A DNA stretch of 21,214 nt from a virus. This document shows, one piece after another, positions 1,191 to 9,213 of this stretch (positions are counted from its first letter, which is position 1; every line of letters starts with the position of its first letter). A program made the translations under genes and the position numbers. The DNA is taken from positions 1 to 21,214 of the IMG/VR virus record IMGVR_UViG_3300005830_000030. One strand, written 5' to 3'. The notes under the pieces were generated by a model. The model saw only the letters and a list, made by a program, of their open reading frames with translations. It was not told the origin of the DNA and did no database searches.

Positions 1191-1640
1191 ATGCCCGAAC
1201 ACCGTATAGGTGAAGGAGATGTATGCACGATATGCGGAGAATATCTCCTAGGTGATGACCGCCCCCTAACTCTCGTTGAATCAGGAAGGATGGATCCAAT
1301 GAAAAAGGATCCATCTTTCCTGAAATTTATTCCTGATTATCTATGCGAAGATAGCCAGGAATCGGAAGACGCACTGGTAGATGTGTTCCACACAGAATGC
1401 GTCATAGCCAATGCCATAGAGGGAGATTGGGGACGGTTCAGTCCCCTCCAATGCGATGCCTGTGAGGCTCGATTTCTGCGGGATATCCCACGATGGGCCT
1501 TTCGGTTTCGAGTTGGAGGGGTAGATTTGGAAGGTTTCTTCGTAGCTGACAGGAACCCTGCCAACTCAGCAATACTCTGTCCAGAATGTTTCAAGATGCA
1601 AATAGAGGACGGGTATTTAGAAGATGCAGAAGGATACTAA
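1191..1640 (+). CDS. Zinc-binding protein of unknown function (149 aa)
   Basis: An ATG also exists at 1179, but GGAGGAG at 1181-1187 lies inside that extension and points to the ATG at 1191, which I take as the start. The protein has four metal-ligand clusters in order: Cys-x2-Cys near the N terminus (residues 12-15), His-x2-Cys in the middle, then Cys-x2-Cys, and a last Cys-x2-Cys near the C terminus. Three CxxC knuckles and one HxxC could bind two zinc ions in a RING- or treble-clef-like arrangement. No known family is recognised and no catalytic motif is seen. It ends the small rightward cluster; its stop overlaps the stop of the leftward portal gene. A role in binding nucleic acid or host protein is possible but unproven. 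Confidence 0.7.
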   Translation: MPEHRIGEGDVCTICGEYLLGDDRPLTLVESGRMDPMKKDPSFLKFIPDYLCEDSQESEDALVDVFHTECVIANAIEGDWGRFSPLQCDACEARFLRDIPRWAFRFRVGGVDLEGFFVADRNPANSAILCPECFKMQIEDGYLEDAEGY

Positions 1641-4600
1641 ACTAAGGAGGATTCAGGCCCGCGCCGTGCCGGTTTCTGCTCAGGCAGAGGCCGCGCGGCG
1701 GCTTGGGCCGACCTAGTAGGACCCCCACCTGCCATTAGCCCTAAAACGATGTCATGGAGTTGCGGCTGTTTTTGTTTAAGTACAGCCAGTGCCCTAGGTC
1801 TCTCGCTGGGTCCTAGCGATGACACCCTATCAGCAATCTGTCTGCCGAGCAGTAGAATATCTACGTTTTGCTGACCGGCTAAGGATTCCCCTGTAGCGCC
1901 AGGAGGTATCCTCTGCACTGACTGCATGGTCAGTGGTGATTGCACCTGAGGTGATCCAGCTAGTAACTCTGGTTGGCGCGGCGCAGGTTGCAGTTCAGGA
2001 GGAGACGGTGGCGGTTCCTGTCCCTGCTGCTGAGCCATCTGCTCTTGCATCATCTGACTCTGCTGTTGCCCTTGAAAAGCTGCTTGATCTTTGGCCGCCT
2101 CGTTTTGGATGGCCATCTGCATCTGCATTTGTTGCTCTTGGGCTTTATTTTGCCACTTCATAGCAGACATCTGGGCTTCACCCTCTATCTCTGCCTGCAG
2201 CAATCTCTGTTTCTTCATCGATCCAGCACGACGGGCAGCCTCACGCTCCATGATTTCGTCTTCTTTATAGGAGTCGTAATCCGCATCGGACAAGAGAGAC
2301 TCGTCCGACAGTTTTCCGGATTGATTTAACTGGAATAGGTACGCTTTCCTCTGTAAATCATCCGCCATTTTAAACGGTTTGAATCTTGCTCTGACCGAAG
2401 GCCACCCAAGCCAAGAAGACGTCTGGCGTATGACCCACTTAAGCAGAGATAGATGATCCTGGAGATACCCCAAAAAGGTATTCTCCAGCATACGCAAACT
2501 GACATTGCTGCCAGAATAGGACAGACCACCAAAAATCAACTCAGTGGGCACCCCCATGCCGGCCACTATCTGCTCGGACCACACCCTTATCTCCTGACTA
2601 AGGAGTAGAGCCCTGCCGTCTCCTCCAATAGACTGGTGTCCAAGAGGGAGAGGCATGATTGGTATGTAATTTGAGTCCGATCGCCAACGTTTGATTTCAC
2701 TAGCAACCTGATCCCTCCAATCCTGTAAATTTACGGAAGTGTAGGGATCTGAAGTAGCAGTACCTGCCTGGGGGAATATTACCCGAAGAGGAACGATATG
2801 CTCCAGCGCAATACTATTTTTAGTGGCTGTACCTGGGGTGCAGAATGTGGTGTCTACGGCAACTTTGAAATCTATATACTGCTCTTCTTCCACTTCTTCT
2901 ACGGAGCATATTCTAGCTGCGAAATAGTCCTTCCAGAAAAAGCCGCTTTTGCCGGATACTACTTCTGGCCCGTAACCGCTTTCCCAAAGGGCCCAAAGCC
3001 TATCTGCCGAGGAATTGCACACTGTCACATTATAAGAGCCTTTACTCCGCACTTCTCTGCCGTCTATCCAGGTAACAGTGGGCTTTAACGAACCGATGGC
3101 AGCAATACATCCAAAATGCAACATCAATCTGTACGCATCATATGCTTGATCTCTACTAGATGATGTCACGGCAATACTAGCCGTTGTTGACGTGCCGTCG
3201 GCCTCCCACAAGCCCTTGAGATACGACAACTTTACTTCGTCTGTACCCGTTAAAATTTCGTTGGGTGCTCTCTTTTGCCTAGCAGTGCCTGGAATCAATC
3301 CTTTAATGAGTTTACGCACAATAACGTCGGACAACACGACTGTATTAACAGTCGTTCCGTATTCCACGGTCGCCTCGACCGAGAACGCGTTGTGTATAGC
3401 ATCTAGCAGTGGAACAAAATTATCCTTTTTGCTTAGACTGAAATTTACATGCCGCGACCCACAACTACCATCCCCAGCGTACCACCCCAAGATGTAAGCC
3501 AGATCCTTGGTCATGGGTATACTACTGGGCATACGCTTCGGGACGCGACCCTCCTTCACTGCCCTCTTCGCCACCCGACCAGGATTATCATGCTTTACCG
3601 AGTCGCCGCGCTCTAACGCCTCAAATGCAGAAGCAGTGCTTTCCGAACAACCACTGTAAACAAAGTCATCAGTTCTGCGCAGTCCAGTATATTTAGCCAC
3701 GTCTATCGATGTCTCACCGACAGGTAAACACCTAGGATAAAGCACATATTCCCCGACCCCAAGCTGGCCAGCGGGACAGAGTACCTCTTCGTAGAGGTGC
3801 GGATTGCGCAATATTACTGACGATCTCTGGGAATCTTTTGTATCAGATCTGCGGGCTTCTTCGTTTCTGCGAATGGTGAAAACTGGGTGCTGAGGAGAAT
3901 ACGTTGTCGGGAATCCCCGAAGCCCAGTCAAAGTGATCTTTCGCCCAATCTCGTCTTCTCTGGCGTCTCTGTACCACTTGTCTTCTACTTCTCTCCAATT
4001 GCCGGTGTGCGTACGCACTAGGTCACCTACCTGCACATCATCTGCCAACACCAAGCCACTGGGCGTCTCAATCTCACTACTCAGAGACACACATTCTTGC
4101 GCCTTGCGTAAGATCTGGAGATAGAATGTGTCCTTCAAGACAGGCAAGATCATGGGCGTGCCCCATCCTCTATCCTTGCCAGCCAACGTCGGTCGCTTGA
4201 AGTGGTAGATGTTGTCTTTGGAGAAAACGACAGCTTTTTTTAGCTTCAAAGCATCGATGAACAACTGTGGAACAGTCTCTACAGTAGACTTCTTTCCTAT
4301 AATGATGTCGTTACGTATCTGATTAGGAATATCGTAGTAATATTCGTATTCTCCGGTGATCTCGTTGTAACGTATATCTACATTTTCAGGATTCCATCGG
4401 AGAAGTCTTATTCCTTTAGGAGCCCGTATATAGTGATCATAAGACCTCACAGGCCCATGATTACCACAATTGGGGCACTGCATATGGAACTGGAAATTTT
4501 GGAACCTATATGTAGAGTCCTTTGCCATGTGCTTAGACTTGCAACTAGGGCATTCCAGAATCTTTATAAACGGGTAAAATATAGAGACTAGAGCATTACC

Positions 4601-4939
4601 GTAGGTGTAATAGTCCAGACCCACTTCAATTTGGAACGCGCGGTAACGCAATTGCTCCAACAAAAAAGAGGTCCACCGCTGCTTCATCTCTGGACGTTCG
4701 GTATCGAACAATATGTCGGTGATGGGGTACTCACTCATCTTGAAAACTACTGCATTGATGAGAGGATTCACCAAGAAGTAATACCTACACCAACGAAACA
4801 TCTGCTTAACAGTGGCGGGTAAGTAGGTATGTGCGATGTCAAAGAACGGGCTAGGATACTGCAGTCCGTTATCCTGGGATCCGCCCATTCGTCCGCTGAA
4901 CCTTGCATCACCTTGGGTACTTGTTACTCCTAGAGTCAC
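1637..4939 (-). CDS. Portal protein precursor with in-frame intein (1100 aa; about 674 aa after splicing)
   Basis: The start is GTG at 4939-4937, directly after the upstream stop, with AGGAGG (4948-4953) 8 bases before it. Extein residues 1-282 and 709-1100 make a portal-type protein: an N-terminal 'yPsPFFDiahtYLP' region, a central alpha/beta core, and after the intein 'ALEHIVPLRVIFPQAG', 'GGDGRALLLSQEIR' and 'GMGVPTELIFGG', as remembered from portals of large phages. Portals form the dodecameric ring at the capsid vertex through which DNA enters and leaves. Unusual parts are a zinc-ribbon-like insert (Cys130, Cys133, Cys155, Cys158) and a C-terminal tail rich in Gln, Met and Pro (about 920-1010). 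Residues 283-708 are an intein, described separately. This is the last gene of the leftward virion block, and its TAG overlaps the stop of the convergent zinc-protein gene. Confidence 0.85.
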   Translation of the reverse strand: MTLGVTSTQGDARFSGRMGGSQDNGLQYPSPFFDIAHTYLPATVKQMFRWCRYYFLVNPLINAVVFKMSEYPITDILFDTERPEMKQRWTSFLLEQLRYRAFQIEVGLDYYTYGNALVSIFYPFIKILECPSCKSKHMAKDSTYRFQNFQFHMQCPNCGNHGPVRSYDHYIRAPKGIRLLRWNPENVDIRYNEITGEYEYYYDIPNQIRNDIIIGKKSTVETVPQLFIDALKLKKAVVFSKDNIYHFKRPTLAGKDRGWGTPMILPVLKDTFYLQILRKAQECVSLSSEIETPSGLVLADDVQVGDLVRTHTGNWREVEDKWYRDAREDEIGRKITLTGLRGFPTTYSPQHPVFTIRRNEEARRSDTKDSQRSSVILRNPHLYEEVLCPAGQLGVGEYVLYPRCLPVGETSIDVAKYTGLRRTDDFVYSGCSESTASAFEALERGDSVKHDNPGRVAKRAVKEGRVPKRMPSSIPMTKDLAYILGWYAGDGSCGSRHVNFSLSKKDNFVPLLDAIHNAFSVEATVEYGTTVNTVVLSDVIVRKLIKGLIPGTARQKRAPNEILTGTDEVKLSYLKGLWEADGTSTTASIAVTSSSRDQAYDAYRLMLHFGCIAAIGSLKPTVTWIDGREVRSKGSYNVTVCNSSADRLWALWESGYGPEVVSGKSGFFWKDYFAARICSVEEVEEEQYIDFKVAVDTTFCTPGTATKNSIALEHIVPLRVIFPQAGTATSDPYTSVNLQDWRDQVASEIKRWRSDSNYIPIMPLPLGHQSIGGDGRALLLSQEIRVWSEQIVAGMGVPTELIFGGLSYSGSNVSLRMLENTFLGYLQDHLSLLKWVIRQTSSWLGWPSVRARFKPFKMADDLQRKAYLFQLNQSGKLSDESLLSDADYDSYKEDEIMEREAARRAGSMKKQRLLQAEIEGEAQMSAMKWQNKAQEQQMQMQMAIQNEAAKDQAAFQGQQQSQMMQEQMAQQQGQEPPPSPPELQPAPRQPELLAGSPQVQSPLTMQSVQRIPPGATGESLAGQQNVDILLLGRQIADRVSSLGPSERPRALAVLKQKQPQLHDIVLGLMAGGGPTRSAQAAARPLPEQKPARRGPESSLV
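2816..4093 (-). other. LAGLIDADG intein inside the portal gene (426 aa)
   Basis: The intein runs from Cys283 to Asn708 of the precursor, and the +1 residue of the C-extein is Ser709. Block A starts Cys-Val-Ser, then 'Glu-Ile-Glu-Thr-Pro-Ser-Gly' and 'VGDLV'. Block B is 'TYSPQHPVFTI' (346-356), with the expected His351. Two LAGLIDADG endonuclease motifs follow, 'LAYILGWYAGDG' (480-491) and 'YLKGLWEADG' (573-582), both keeping their acidic residue (Asp490, Asp581). Block F is 'YIDFKVAVDTTF' (688-699) and block G is 'ATKN'+Ser. The penultimate residue is Lys707, where most inteins have His. Removing these residues joins 'RKAQE' to 'SIALEHIVPL' with no gap in the portal fold, which supports the boundaries. 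Both splicing and homing parts look intact; the effect of Lys707 on splicing is unknown. Confidence 0.9.
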
Positions 4940-5851
4940 TTAGTAAGCCTCCTGCCCCGCTACTTGCCCAGGTCTGCGGACCATCTGCACGCCTTTATCA
5001 CCTAGTCTTCCCACTTTGCCCCCGATATAACCCCCACCCATACCCACTATTTGTCCCCCCAATATAGTAGTCGGGGCGACCATCCAACCGAGAGCACTTC
5101 CCGCACCTCGCAGGCCCTTTTCCAATCGCCCAGGTCCGCCCTCTTCAGGTTTCTCCACCAATCCCTTGCCTGCTTCATAAGCTCCCAGACCGGCAAAAAG
5201 TTTGCCCGGTCCTCCACCACGCTGCCAACCGCTCCTGATGACGTCGCCAGGACGAGTTAACATACCGTGTACTACACCAGGCGCACTCATGTATCCCTTC
5301 TTAAGGGCATCTTCCTCGAACGCGATCCTGGCTTTGGCTGCCGCAGAAGCTTTGTCCGACTTCGCCACATTCCCTCCAAAATTCTTGGCGTTGAATGTCT
5401 CCGGATCAAATCTGCCTATCAGACCTATTTCTCGAGCCTTTTCTAGTTTTTCAGCTTCAGTTTTTCCTAGACCTTTACCGGTCAAAGAGTACCGCTGTCT
5501 CTGGTAAAAGTTGCCGATTCCTTTTCTGACAGCTTCCCTACCCTTTTTTCTGGCTAATACAGTCCCACCAGCGATACCACCCCCAACTAGAGCCCCTTTA
5601 AGAGCCCCTCGAGTATACCCGCCAGGCTGGTCCGGGTCTGATGCCAAGGCGCCTCCAACAGCGCCCAGACCAGTGCCGAGAAGCACCTGCCTACCATAAT
5701 TACCACGCAACTCGCTGCCGGCCATTCCCACAGCTTTACCAATATTAGAGCGCGCAAAGCGACCCGCTGACCGTAAAAAATCACTAACAGCGGCTTCCTT
5801 ATTTAGTTCGCCATAGAAACCGATCATGTGCCTGGGAGTAATATGTCTCAT
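4940..5851 (-). CDS. Gly/Ala-rich virion-associated protein of unknown function (303 aa)
   Basis: I chose the ATG at 5851-5849 because it overlaps the previous stop as ATGA (TGA at 5850-5848). A longer frame from 5908 would overlap the upstream gene by 61 bases with no added support. After a short N-terminal segment containing 'GELNKEAAV', the protein is rich in Gly, Ala and Arg. It has several GxxxG-like stretches, for example 'LLGTGLGAVGGALA', 'GALVGGGIAGGTVLA' and 'ILGGQIVGMGGGYIGG'. Such glycine-zipper segments can insert into membranes and occur in phage internal or ejected proteins. Basic patches are interspersed, and no enzyme motif is visible. It lies immediately before the portal gene (TAA then GTG), so co-expression with the portal is certain by position. 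The function is unknown; an internal virion or DNA-ejection protein is a guess. Confidence 0.7.
   Translation of the reverse strand: MRHITPRHMIGFYGELNKEAAVSDFLRSAGRFARSNIGKAVGMAGSELRGNYGRQVLLGTGLGAVGGALASDPDQPGGYTRGALKGALVGGGIAGGTVLARKKGREAVRKGIGNFYQRQRYSLTGKGLGKTEAEKLEKAREIGLIGRFDPETFNAKNFGGNVAKSDKASAAAKARIAFEEDALKKGYMSAPGVVHGMLTRPGDVIRSGWQRGGGPGKLFAGLGAYEAGKGLVEKPEEGGPGRLEKGLRGAGSALGWMVAPTTILGGQIVGMGGGYIGGKVGRLGDKGVQMVRRPGQVAGQEAY
4948..4953 (-). promoter_or_regulatory. Ribosome-binding site deciding the GTG start of the portal
   Basis: On the minus strand AGGAGG is followed by 8 bases and then GTG at 4939. It sits within the last codons of the upstream gene and supports the GTG start. Confidence 0.75.
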
Positions 5852-6732: not shown

Positions 6733-9213
6733 TTACGTGAGAACAGCACTGAGTGTGTTCGACATCACTCCGTTAGAGCTCAGCATAATGCCAACGATAT
6801 CCGTGGCTGCCCTGCCGGTTAATGCAGGCACCAACACGGTTACTACAGTGTCGGTCCACTGAGTAGCTGCTTGAACTGGGTCGCAGTTCTGCCCATTGAT
6901 GGTTACTGTGTTTCCGGCGTAATAGCCAGCGCCTCCCGCCAGGGGAGTCGACGTGGCAACCACGACATTGTCGGCGCCTGTTCCTCCTGCTACCGCATGT
7001 ATGATTCCGATACAGGTAGTCTCGGCATTGATTGCCGCAGCTACGTCTGTTGCCGTGCTACCGCCGGCCGCTAACGTAACCGTTAGAACCGTACCAGCTA
7101 CTGCGGCAGCTAAAGCACCGACACCCTGTTCTATAACCAAACTGAAACCGCTCACCCCCGGTTTCAGCATTGTGACGGTTATGGCCGCATTAGCTGTACC
7201 AGACGTAAGGGTATCGAACGTTTGACCTCCGACAAAGTTGCGGCCTCTTATTACGAAGCTAGCTTGACCAGCAGCCAAAAGATCACCAGGATCCAGGGCG
7301 TCGATTACTGGTCTCAACGCAGTACTCTCTGTGCTGAGTGTATTGGACAGCACGCCATTGGCGCTCACAGTGACGCCGACGATATCTGTGGCTTGTCTTC
7401 CTGTCAGAGCCGGTACTAATACCGTGATAGAGGTGTCGGTCCACTGACTGGCAGCCTGAACTGGGTTGCAATTCTGCCCGTTAATAGTCACCGTATTGCC
7501 GGCATAGTAGCCGGTACCGCCAGCCAACGGAGTCTCGGTTGCTACTACGACATTGTCGGCACCAGTACCGCCCGCCACCGCATGTATGATACCAATGCAG
7601 GTCGCCTCTGCGTTGATGGCCGCAGCTACGGCTGTTGCCGTACTACCGCCTGCTGCTAGAGTCACTGTCAGCGTGGTGCCGGCAAACGCTGCCGCAAGAG
7701 CACCGACACCCTGCTCCACAATTAAGCTGACGCCGCTGTCACCGGGCTTCAGCATAGTCACTGCCACCGCCGCATTGGCCGTTCCAGATGTGAGGGTGTC
7801 AAAAGTCTGGCTTCCAACAAAATTGCGTCCCTTAATTACAAAAGACGCCTGGCCAGCCGCCAAAAGAGTGCCCGGATCCAAGGCATCGATCGCCGGCTTC
7901 AGTGCAGCACTCTCAGTACTGAGAGTATTGGACATCATTCCATTCGCGATAACTGTAACGCCGACGATATCCGCGGCCTGTCTTCCTGTCAGGAGCGGCA
8001 CCAGAACTGTAATGGAGGTATCCGTCCATTGGCTCGCAGCCTGTACCGGATTGCAGCTCTGACCATTGATATACACAGAGTTACCGGCATAGTAGCCGGC
8101 GCCCCCTGCTAGAGGAGTCGATGTGGCAACCACAACGTTGTCCGCGCCTGTACCGCCGGCCACCGCGTGTATGATACCGATACACGTCGCTTCCGCATTG
8201 ATAGCCGCCGCCACAGCTGTTGCCGTACTACCGCCCGCCGCCAACGTAACCGTCAACGTACTAGCAGAAAACGCCGCCGCAAGCGCTCCAACACCCTGCT
8301 CTATCACTAGACTAACACCACTATCCCCGGGCTTGAGCATTGTGACGGTTATGGCCGCGTTGGCCGTTCCAGACGTGAGAGTATCGAAAGTCTGACTTCC
8401 GACAAAGTTGCGCCCTTTGATTACAAAAGAGGCTTGACCGGCCGCTAGAAGAGTACCAGGATCCAGAGCATCCACGATCGGCACTTCCGCGCTAGTATCG
8501 GTGCAGATAGTATTCGACAGCACTCCATCAGAAACCACCATGACAGCCACGACATCCGTCGCCTGCCTACCCGTCAGGGCTGGAACCAGCACGGTGATGG
8601 ATGTGTCGGTCCATTGACTGGCGGCCTGGACAGGGTTGCAACTCTGTCCATTAATGTAGACGATGTTTTCCGCATAAGCCCCGACACCGCCTGCGAGTGG
8701 GGTCGACGTGGCGACAACAACATTGTCTGCCCCCGTGCCGCCCGCCACTGCATGAATAACGCCGATGCACGATGCTGCAGCATTGATCGCTGCAGCCACA
8801 GCTGTTGCGGTACTGCCGCCGGCAGCCAGTGTGACGGTCAATACACTGGCAGACAGCACTGCGGATAAAGCTCCAACTCCCTGAGCCACTACCAAGCTGA
8901 CTCCGCTATCGCCGGGTTTGAGCATTGTAACGGTTACTGCCGCATTAGCGGTACCCGTAGTGAGCGTATCGAATGTTTGACTTTGAAGAAGATTGCGCCC
9001 TTTGATTACAAAAGACGCCTGCCCGGCCGCCAGAAGGACACCCGGGTCTAAAGCATCCAATATCGGATGGCCAGTTCTGGATTCGGCAGCCAGGAAACCC
9101 GTCTCCACGTCGTCTCGGAGATCTGCGATCTCTGCTTGCAGTCCGCCTGTTCCGCGTAGAAGGTGGGCTTTCTTAGCGCGTTGTGCACTAAATGCTCTAC
9201 TCTCTCTTGTCAT
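6733..9213 (-). CDS. Tandem-repeat Ig-like (TIG-type) virion protein (826 aa)
   Basis: ATG at 9213-9211 follows AAAGGAGATC on the minus strand. Residues 1-50 are a charged, partly coiled-coil N terminus. Four tandem units of exactly 195 residues begin at 51, 246, 441 and 636; the last is 191 long. Each unit starts 'DALDPG..LAAGQASFVI+GRN' and ends 'INGQ.C.PVQAA.QWTDT..TVLVP.LTGR.A.D', then an 'S-N-T' close, the usual signature of IPT/TIG Ig-like folds. Between the halves sits an insert of about 105 residues ('VTMLKPG', 'LTVTLAAGGSTAT', 'AVAGGTGADNVVVAT', 'TPLAGG') resembling a domain I remember from many phage structural proteins. Each unit keeps two Cys 43 residues apart (149/192, 344/387, 539/582, 734/777). 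No receptor-binding tip or enzyme domain is seen. A capsid decoration or fibre-stalk role is likely; which of the two cannot be decided here. Confidence 0.82.
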   Translation of the reverse strand: MTRESRAFSAQRAKKAHLLRGTGGLQAEIADLRDDVETGFLAAESRTGHPILDALDPGVLLAAGQASFVIKGRNLLQSQTFDTLTTGTANAAVTVTMLKPGDSGVSLVVAQGVGALSAVLSASVLTVTLAAGGSTATAVAAAINAAASCIGVIHAVAGGTGADNVVVATSTPLAGGVGAYAENIVYINGQSCNPVQAASQWTDTSITVLVPALTGRQATDVVAVMVVSDGVLSNTICTDTSAEVPIVDALDPGTLLAAGQASFVIKGRNFVGSQTFDTLTSGTANAAITVTMLKPGDSGVSLVIEQGVGALAAAFSASTLTVTLAAGGSTATAVAAAINAEATCIGIIHAVAGGTGADNVVVATSTPLAGGAGYYAGNSVYINGQSCNPVQAASQWTDTSITVLVPLLTGRQAADIVGVTVIANGMMSNTLSTESAALKPAIDALDPGTLLAAGQASFVIKGRNFVGSQTFDTLTSGTANAAVAVTMLKPGDSGVSLIVEQGVGALAAAFAGTTLTVTLAAGGSTATAVAAAINAEATCIGIIHAVAGGTGADNVVVATETPLAGGTGYYAGNTVTINGQNCNPVQAASQWTDTSITVLVPALTGRQATDIVGVTVSANGVLSNTLSTESTALRPVIDALDPGDLLAAGQASFVIRGRNFVGGQTFDTLTSGTANAAITVTMLKPGVSGFSLVIEQGVGALAAAVAGTVLTVTLAAGGSTATDVAAAINAETTCIGIIHAVAGGTGADNVVVATSTPLAGGAGYYAGNTVTINGQNCDPVQAATQWTDTVVTVLVPALTGRAATDIVGIMLSSNGVMSNTLSAVLT
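6736..9063 (-). repeat. Four in-frame 585-bp tandem repeats within the TIG-type gene
   Basis: In reading order the units are 9063-8479, 8478-7894, 7893-7309 and 7308-6736. The period is exactly 585 bp (195 codons) with no insertion or deletion between units. The encoded units are highly similar, while the DNA differs at many third codon positions. Examples on the plus strand are 'ttacgaagctagcttgacc' near 7251, 'ttacaaaagacgcctggcc' near 7835 and 'ttacaaaagaggcttgacc' near 8420. Unit 4 is the most divergent at protein level (for example PGVSGF for PGDSGV). Confidence 0.93.

Follow-up and report, generated by a model that had tools for sequence, protein, structure and literature searches.

A putative class 1 intein with a penultimate lysine and a nested LAGLIDADG endonuclease in a tailed-phage portal gene

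The portal gene of the virus record IMGVR_UViG_3300005830_000030 (IMG/VR), from which a window of 21,214 bases was analysed, is interrupted by a 426-residue insert that is very probably a class 1 intein enclosing a LAGLIDADG homing endonuclease. It is fixed at a single codon of this tailed-phage gene and is predicted to excise itself from the precursor. The residue before its terminal Asn is Lys. As judged from the sequences of its relatives, the Lys-Asn end is a stable character of this intein lineage and not a mark of decay. The features of the gene are listed in Table 1.

Table 1. Features of the portal-intein gene, in window coordinates.
Feature	Position	Strand	Details and support
Portal-intein precursor gene	1637..4939	-	1100 aa, GTG start; stop at 1637-1639
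N-extein, portal residues 1-282, C-terminal end ..ILRKAQE	4094..4939	-	63 tblastn relatives; joined to the C-extein at gap 0 where the intein is absent
C-extein, residues 283-674 of the spliced portal	1640..2815	-	tblastn relatives, best 80 of 169
Intein, 426 aa, CVSL...TATKN	2816..4093	-	Alignments, AlphaFold model; PDB matches are inteins
Cys1, putative first splicing nucleophile	4091..4093	-	Invariant in 24 aligned portal inteins
His69 of block B, in SPQH	3887..3889	-	Invariant in 24 aligned inteins
LAGLIDADG motif 1, LAYILGWYAGDGS	3464..3502	-	PF14528 by Pfam
LAGLIDADG motif 2, LSYLKGLWEADGT	3191..3229	-	I-DmoI matches, model residues 192-373
Blocks F and G, QYIDFKVAVDTTFCTPGTATKN	2816..2881	-	Asp408 at F:4; Thr415 at F:13, usually His
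Penultimate Lys (AAA), residue 707 in the precursor and 425 in the intein	2819..2821	-	9 of the 13 inteins at this site have Lys
Ser+1, putative second splicing nucleophile	2813..2815	-	All 13 occupied sites have Ser
Portal intein sites, spliced numbering			a after 111, b 282, c 307, d 327 or 329, e 380 or 382

An AGGAGG sequence (4948-4953, minus strand), read directly from the DNA, lies 8 bases before the GTG start of the precursor gene. The calculated masses are 123.7 kDa for the precursor, 76.6 kDa for the spliced portal and 47.1 kDa for the intein, where the initial annotation had given 120 and 74 kDa for the first two. Pfam recognized only the LAGLIDADG domain in the whole frame, and searches of the precursor against PHROGs and NCBIfam gave weak portal and intein-endonuclease matches. 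Elsewhere in the window (6733-9213, minus strand), an 826-aa protein is built from four nearly identical repeat units, each about 190 aa long, and has IPT/TIG matches.

The site without the insert is preserved in many related portals. By tblastn, the exteins together match gp204 of Salmonella phage Arash (OQ632216), which carries the annotation 'portal protein', and sequences of three Vibrio phages at about 32% identity, in two pieces flanking the insert. The relatives that join residue 282 to 709 with gap 0 include phage Arash, Vibrio phage D181 and the record OZ196140. Scans of viral contigs yielded 92 distinct portals having both exteins, and in the majority residues 282 and 709 are adjacent, with no base gained or lost. 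Alignment across this junction had been named by the initial annotation as the test of its proposal, and the proposal passes it; its boundaries for the insert are also exact (426 codons on the minus strand). An insert is present at the identical codon (282/283) in 12 other contigs. Chance or artefact as its origin was rejected, because it recurs at one codon in 13 contigs.

The fold of the host protein was modelled for an intein-free relative (L013). Among the 50 matches listed for the L013 model (pLDDT 70), all are portal or neck structures (Z 16-21), including the portals of lambda (Z about 20), T4 and HK97 as well as other portals. Together with the annotated portal matched by the exteins, this agrees with the portal host originally assigned. 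The insertion site (site b) lies near the end of a long helix (265-287) in the L013 model, which, by the usual order of portal elements, would correspond to the stem helix that leads to the clip; the region beyond it is of low confidence. An insert of 426 residues at this position should hinder formation of the portal ring. Residues 130-158 of the L013 portal hold four Cys (CxxC..CxxC) that are invariant in the portal family, a pattern that suggests a zinc ribbon.

The insert extends from Cys283 to Asn708 of the 1100-aa frame, with Lys707 preceding the terminal Asn and Ser709 following it. Its ends thus carry the class 1 residues Cys1, Asn426 and Ser+1. In block B, SPQH has Ser for the usual Thr of the [T/S]xxH motif, and in block F an Asp occupies F:4 within YID (block positions are named after PMC4031507). 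The fold is that of a Hint domain, and the insert is in frame, absent from homologues and flanked by exteins that join cleanly. The penultimate His that is usual, and not obligatory, in class 1 is replaced by Lys in the window and eight relatives, which does not exclude class 1 because phage inteins are known with differing residues at this position. The window intein lacks both histidines that usually assist (G:6 and F:13), and this counts against its being a self-splicing class 1 intein; F:13 is most often His (PMC4031507). A class 3 intein (Trp at B:12, Cys at F:4, no Cys1) was rejected, as the insert has Val, Asp and Cys1, respectively. The NCBIfam models intein_Nterm and intein_Cterm (TIGR01445 and TIGR01443), which serve for detection and do not define inteins, matched nowhere in the window. 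Therefore, the Hint domain assignment rests on alignment and the fold model.

The AlphaFold model of the intein, built with 24 relatives, has a pLDDT of 92.1 and a pTM of 0.90. It matches the TliVMA, Pko, PhoVMA and yeast VMA (PI-SceI) inteins in the PDB over its full length, from the first to the last residue. The match to the TliVMA intein (VIA Z 31.1) has an rmsd of 3.3 over 327 residues, that to the Mtu RecA splicing domain (Z 18.8) has an rmsd of 1.8 Å over 130 residues, and the Z scores against PDB inteins range from 13 to 31.

Both LAGLIDADG motifs in the window retain the catalytic Asp (GWYAGDGS and GLWEADGT), and the PF14528 match is above its cut-off; the endonuclease that the initial annotation had recognized in the intein is predicted to cut DNA site-specifically. 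One catalytic Asp is lost in L008 and one in L031, so that activity of the window endonuclease should not be taken for granted. Retention in the window together with loss in these relatives is as expected for a homing cycle. In L102, from the same contig as L148, the site-b intein contains a single in-frame TAG at about 4048, where relatives have a Gln codon and the rest of the frame is open; it may be an error, a nonsense allele or a readthrough codon. Vibrio phage D181, whose portal is intein-free, has free-standing genes annotated as homing endonucleases close to that portal gene (L010, 5045-5668 and 9825-10442).

The lysine before the terminal Asn, already pointed out in the initial annotation, is shared by most inteins at this codon. 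The 13 distinct inteins of site b comprise nine with Lys-Asn (window, L002, L003, L004, L005, L006, L008, L148/L102 and L150) and four with His-Asn (L031, L151, L149 and L009); the Lys types L150 and L008 are at 55-56% identity. The F:13 residue is Thr or Ser in every Lys type, His in L031 and L151, and Glu in L149 and L009. It therefore cannot compensate for the missing His, and the earlier suggestion that block F compensates is not supported for its usual residue. Residues 37, 400 and 402 are acidic in the Lys types only, a pattern drawn from few independent lineages. Inteins of relatives at sites c and d all end in His-Asn except one Cys-Asn (L151, site d), and those at site a end in Gly-Asn. 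The only pair that is not saturated, L005/L006, has a dN/dS of 0.056 across its splicing blocks; for the endonuclease the value is 0.086. Sequencing error as the source of Lys was rejected, given nine separate contigs. Conservation over these contigs and strong purifying selection indicate that Lys is a fixed trait of the lineage, which argues against damage. The His types L149 and L009 fall among the Lys types on the best tree; a single Lys clade is not rejected (p-AU 0.108), yet it is not the best tree. The placement of these two in the tree, at the same portal site, suggests that the Lys and His types are exchangeable.

The intein has moved between portals. The window groups with L148, L002 and L003 in the intein tree (100/98) and with L004, L005 and L006 in the extein tree, and the extein and intein data each reject the grouping of the other (p-AU 0.009 and 0.003); this conflict shows horizontal movement. 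Compared with the window, L008 shows 30% identity in the N-extein and 55% in the intein. The +1 residue is Ser at all 13 occupied sites, whereas at 84 unoccupied sites it is Ala in 71 and Ser in 10 (Fisher p 2.5e-10, kinship ignored). Either homing with transfer of the flanking codon or a requirement for Ser explains this tie. Likewise, MCM-d sites have Ser if occupied and mostly Pro if empty (PMC10643990).

Five intein sites were located in the portal family, and the portals of L004, L006 and L151 carry three inteins each; those of L006 and L151 reach 1978 aa and more than 2000 aa, respectively. The sequence near the sites is slightly better conserved than the average (p 0.04). In the tree, the inteins of sites b, c and d separate into three groups according to site, so each spreads within its own site. 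At sites d and e, insertion occurs in either of two registers that differ by two codons: RWR|C..HN|SD (L004, L006 and L097) and RWRxD|C..N|S/T (L017 and L151) at site d, and those of L026 and L051 versus L151 (GGLSY|C and GGM|C) at site e. Either register gives a full-length spliced portal, and the inteins at each site are related. Site a of L073, L097 and L118 holds inteins of 310-318 aa ending in LTGN|C, with a penultimate Gly and a block F His.

The record IMGVR_UViG_3300032516_000003 (193 kb; L004 4001-8014 and L162-L164) contains at least nine inteins in six genes, namely those for the portal (three), DNA polymerase A, DnaB helicase, an RNA polymerase beta/beta' fusion, terminase and a 1339-aa protein (two). 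CrAss-like phages, for which the intron and intein density has been called unprecedented, had up to three inteins per genome (PMC7886860). The L006 contig (48.9 kb) has further intein-like matches in frames of 3596, 1050, 787 and 764 aa. A 444-aa intein ending in HN|S lies in a 1765-aa frame unrelated to portals (L153, 4001-5332) and is 23% identical to the window intein. One scan of prokaryote genome contigs found no relatives, and additional scans with L150, L149 and L008 as queries found no new members. Named phages gave only weak partial matches, found in genes for thymidylate synthase and ribonucleotide reductase and in hypothetical proteins; most of them cover the endonuclease part.

From the anatomy, the exact empty site, the family-wide Lys, the horizontal movement and the selection read in these sequences, we infer the following course. 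A precursor of 124 kDa would be translated, in which Cys1 takes over the N-extein and hands it on to Ser+1. Cyclization of Asn426, most likely aided by Lys425 (precursor residue 707) in place of the usual His, would then free the intein and leave a 77-kDa portal able to form the ring, the precursor presumably staying unassembled. During mixed infection, the endonuclease would copy the intein into empty portal genes, carrying the flanking Ser codon along. As a tentative wider proposal, this lineage may have exchanged the histidines at F:13 and G:6 for Thr/Ser and Lys, with Lys acting as a catalytic helper that is perhaps steadied by E37, E400 and E402, and the portal gene may act as an intein magnet, offering five sites or more.

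Three other explanations were weighed. Lys might make splicing slow or conditional, so that the intein times or senses portal maturation. A change at the penultimate position strongly alters the speed of the mycobacteriophage RDF intein (PMC5050341), and Lys co-occurs with Thr/Ser at F:13 and with the acidic residues at 37, 400 and 402. However, the sequence holds no sign of regulation, a noncanonical residue can be the faster state (the natural Gly of the RDF intein splices faster, and its change to His slowed splicing; PMC5050341), and the apparent exchangeability of the Lys and His types also speaks against this explanation, which we regard as unlikely.

Damage to the C-terminal step by Lys, leading to cleavage products or an unspliced portal, would be the outcome in a decaying intein. 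His is indeed the common residue, and the relatives L008, L031 and L148 show endonuclease decay or a stop. However, Lys occurs in nine diverged inteins with all nucleophiles intact and under purifying selection, and an insert left unspliced would disable a gene that is essential, which makes decay very improbable. A large domain retained in the portal would account for the failure of standard intein splicing models to detect the insert, but is hard to reconcile with the Hint fold, the full-length matches to inteins, the precise presence or absence at one codon and the horizontal spread. We give this possibility hardly any weight and retain the assignment as an intein, with Lys as a trait of its lineage.

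Earlier papers already describe inteins in phage portals, Lys in class 1 inteins and host genes invaded at more than one site (PMC5050341, PMC10643990). Six cluster C1 mycobacteriophage portals carry inteins (PORT; PMC5050341), so the remark in the initial annotation that portal hosts are less common is right, although such hosts are known. The C1 inteins share with the window the phage portal host, and are class 1 with a variable penultimate residue; Lys is already listed at that position in mycobacteriophage inteins (PMC5050341). Their site and intein family seem separate from those of the window; tblastn with the window portal or intein gave no mycobacteriophage match. The VMA inteins (TliVMA, 7qss/7qsu, and PI-SceI) likewise combine a Hint domain with a nested two-motif LAGLIDADG endonuclease and match the full-length fold, but they share 16-18% identity with the window intein by structural alignment, reside in a different host gene and differ from it in that the window intein has Lys at G:6. 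Like the window intein, the RDF intein (Gly) and cyanobacterial DnaE inteins (Ser or Ala) lack the G:6 His, and these splice without it (PMC5050341, PMC5874633). The F-block His can take over in inteins without the penultimate His (PMC5050341), whereas the window lineage has Thr or Ser there. Among open-access papers, we found neither a splicing assay of a Lys-Asn intein, nor a conserved Lys-Asn lineage without both assisting histidines, nor a five-site portal family.

Conserved genes invaded at several sites include haloarchaeal MCM (four sites), mycobacteriophage terminases (seven) and Prp8 (seven), and the tie between Ser+1 and occupancy is common to MCM-d and the window family (PMC10643990). 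The portal family differs from these hosts in that its protein is a structural part of the virion; it has five sites, and a single gene can carry up to three inteins. New here are this family and the Lys-Asn lineage without both histidines, which standard intein models miss. Because its splicing domain escapes those models, such portals are probably mis-annotated in databases. The Lys-Asn inteins and their His-Asn relatives, located at one codon of one gene, form a natural comparison for catalysis of the last splicing step. With the portal family, the known intein hotspots now include a structural virion gene, in which an intein crosses between portals only 30% identical.
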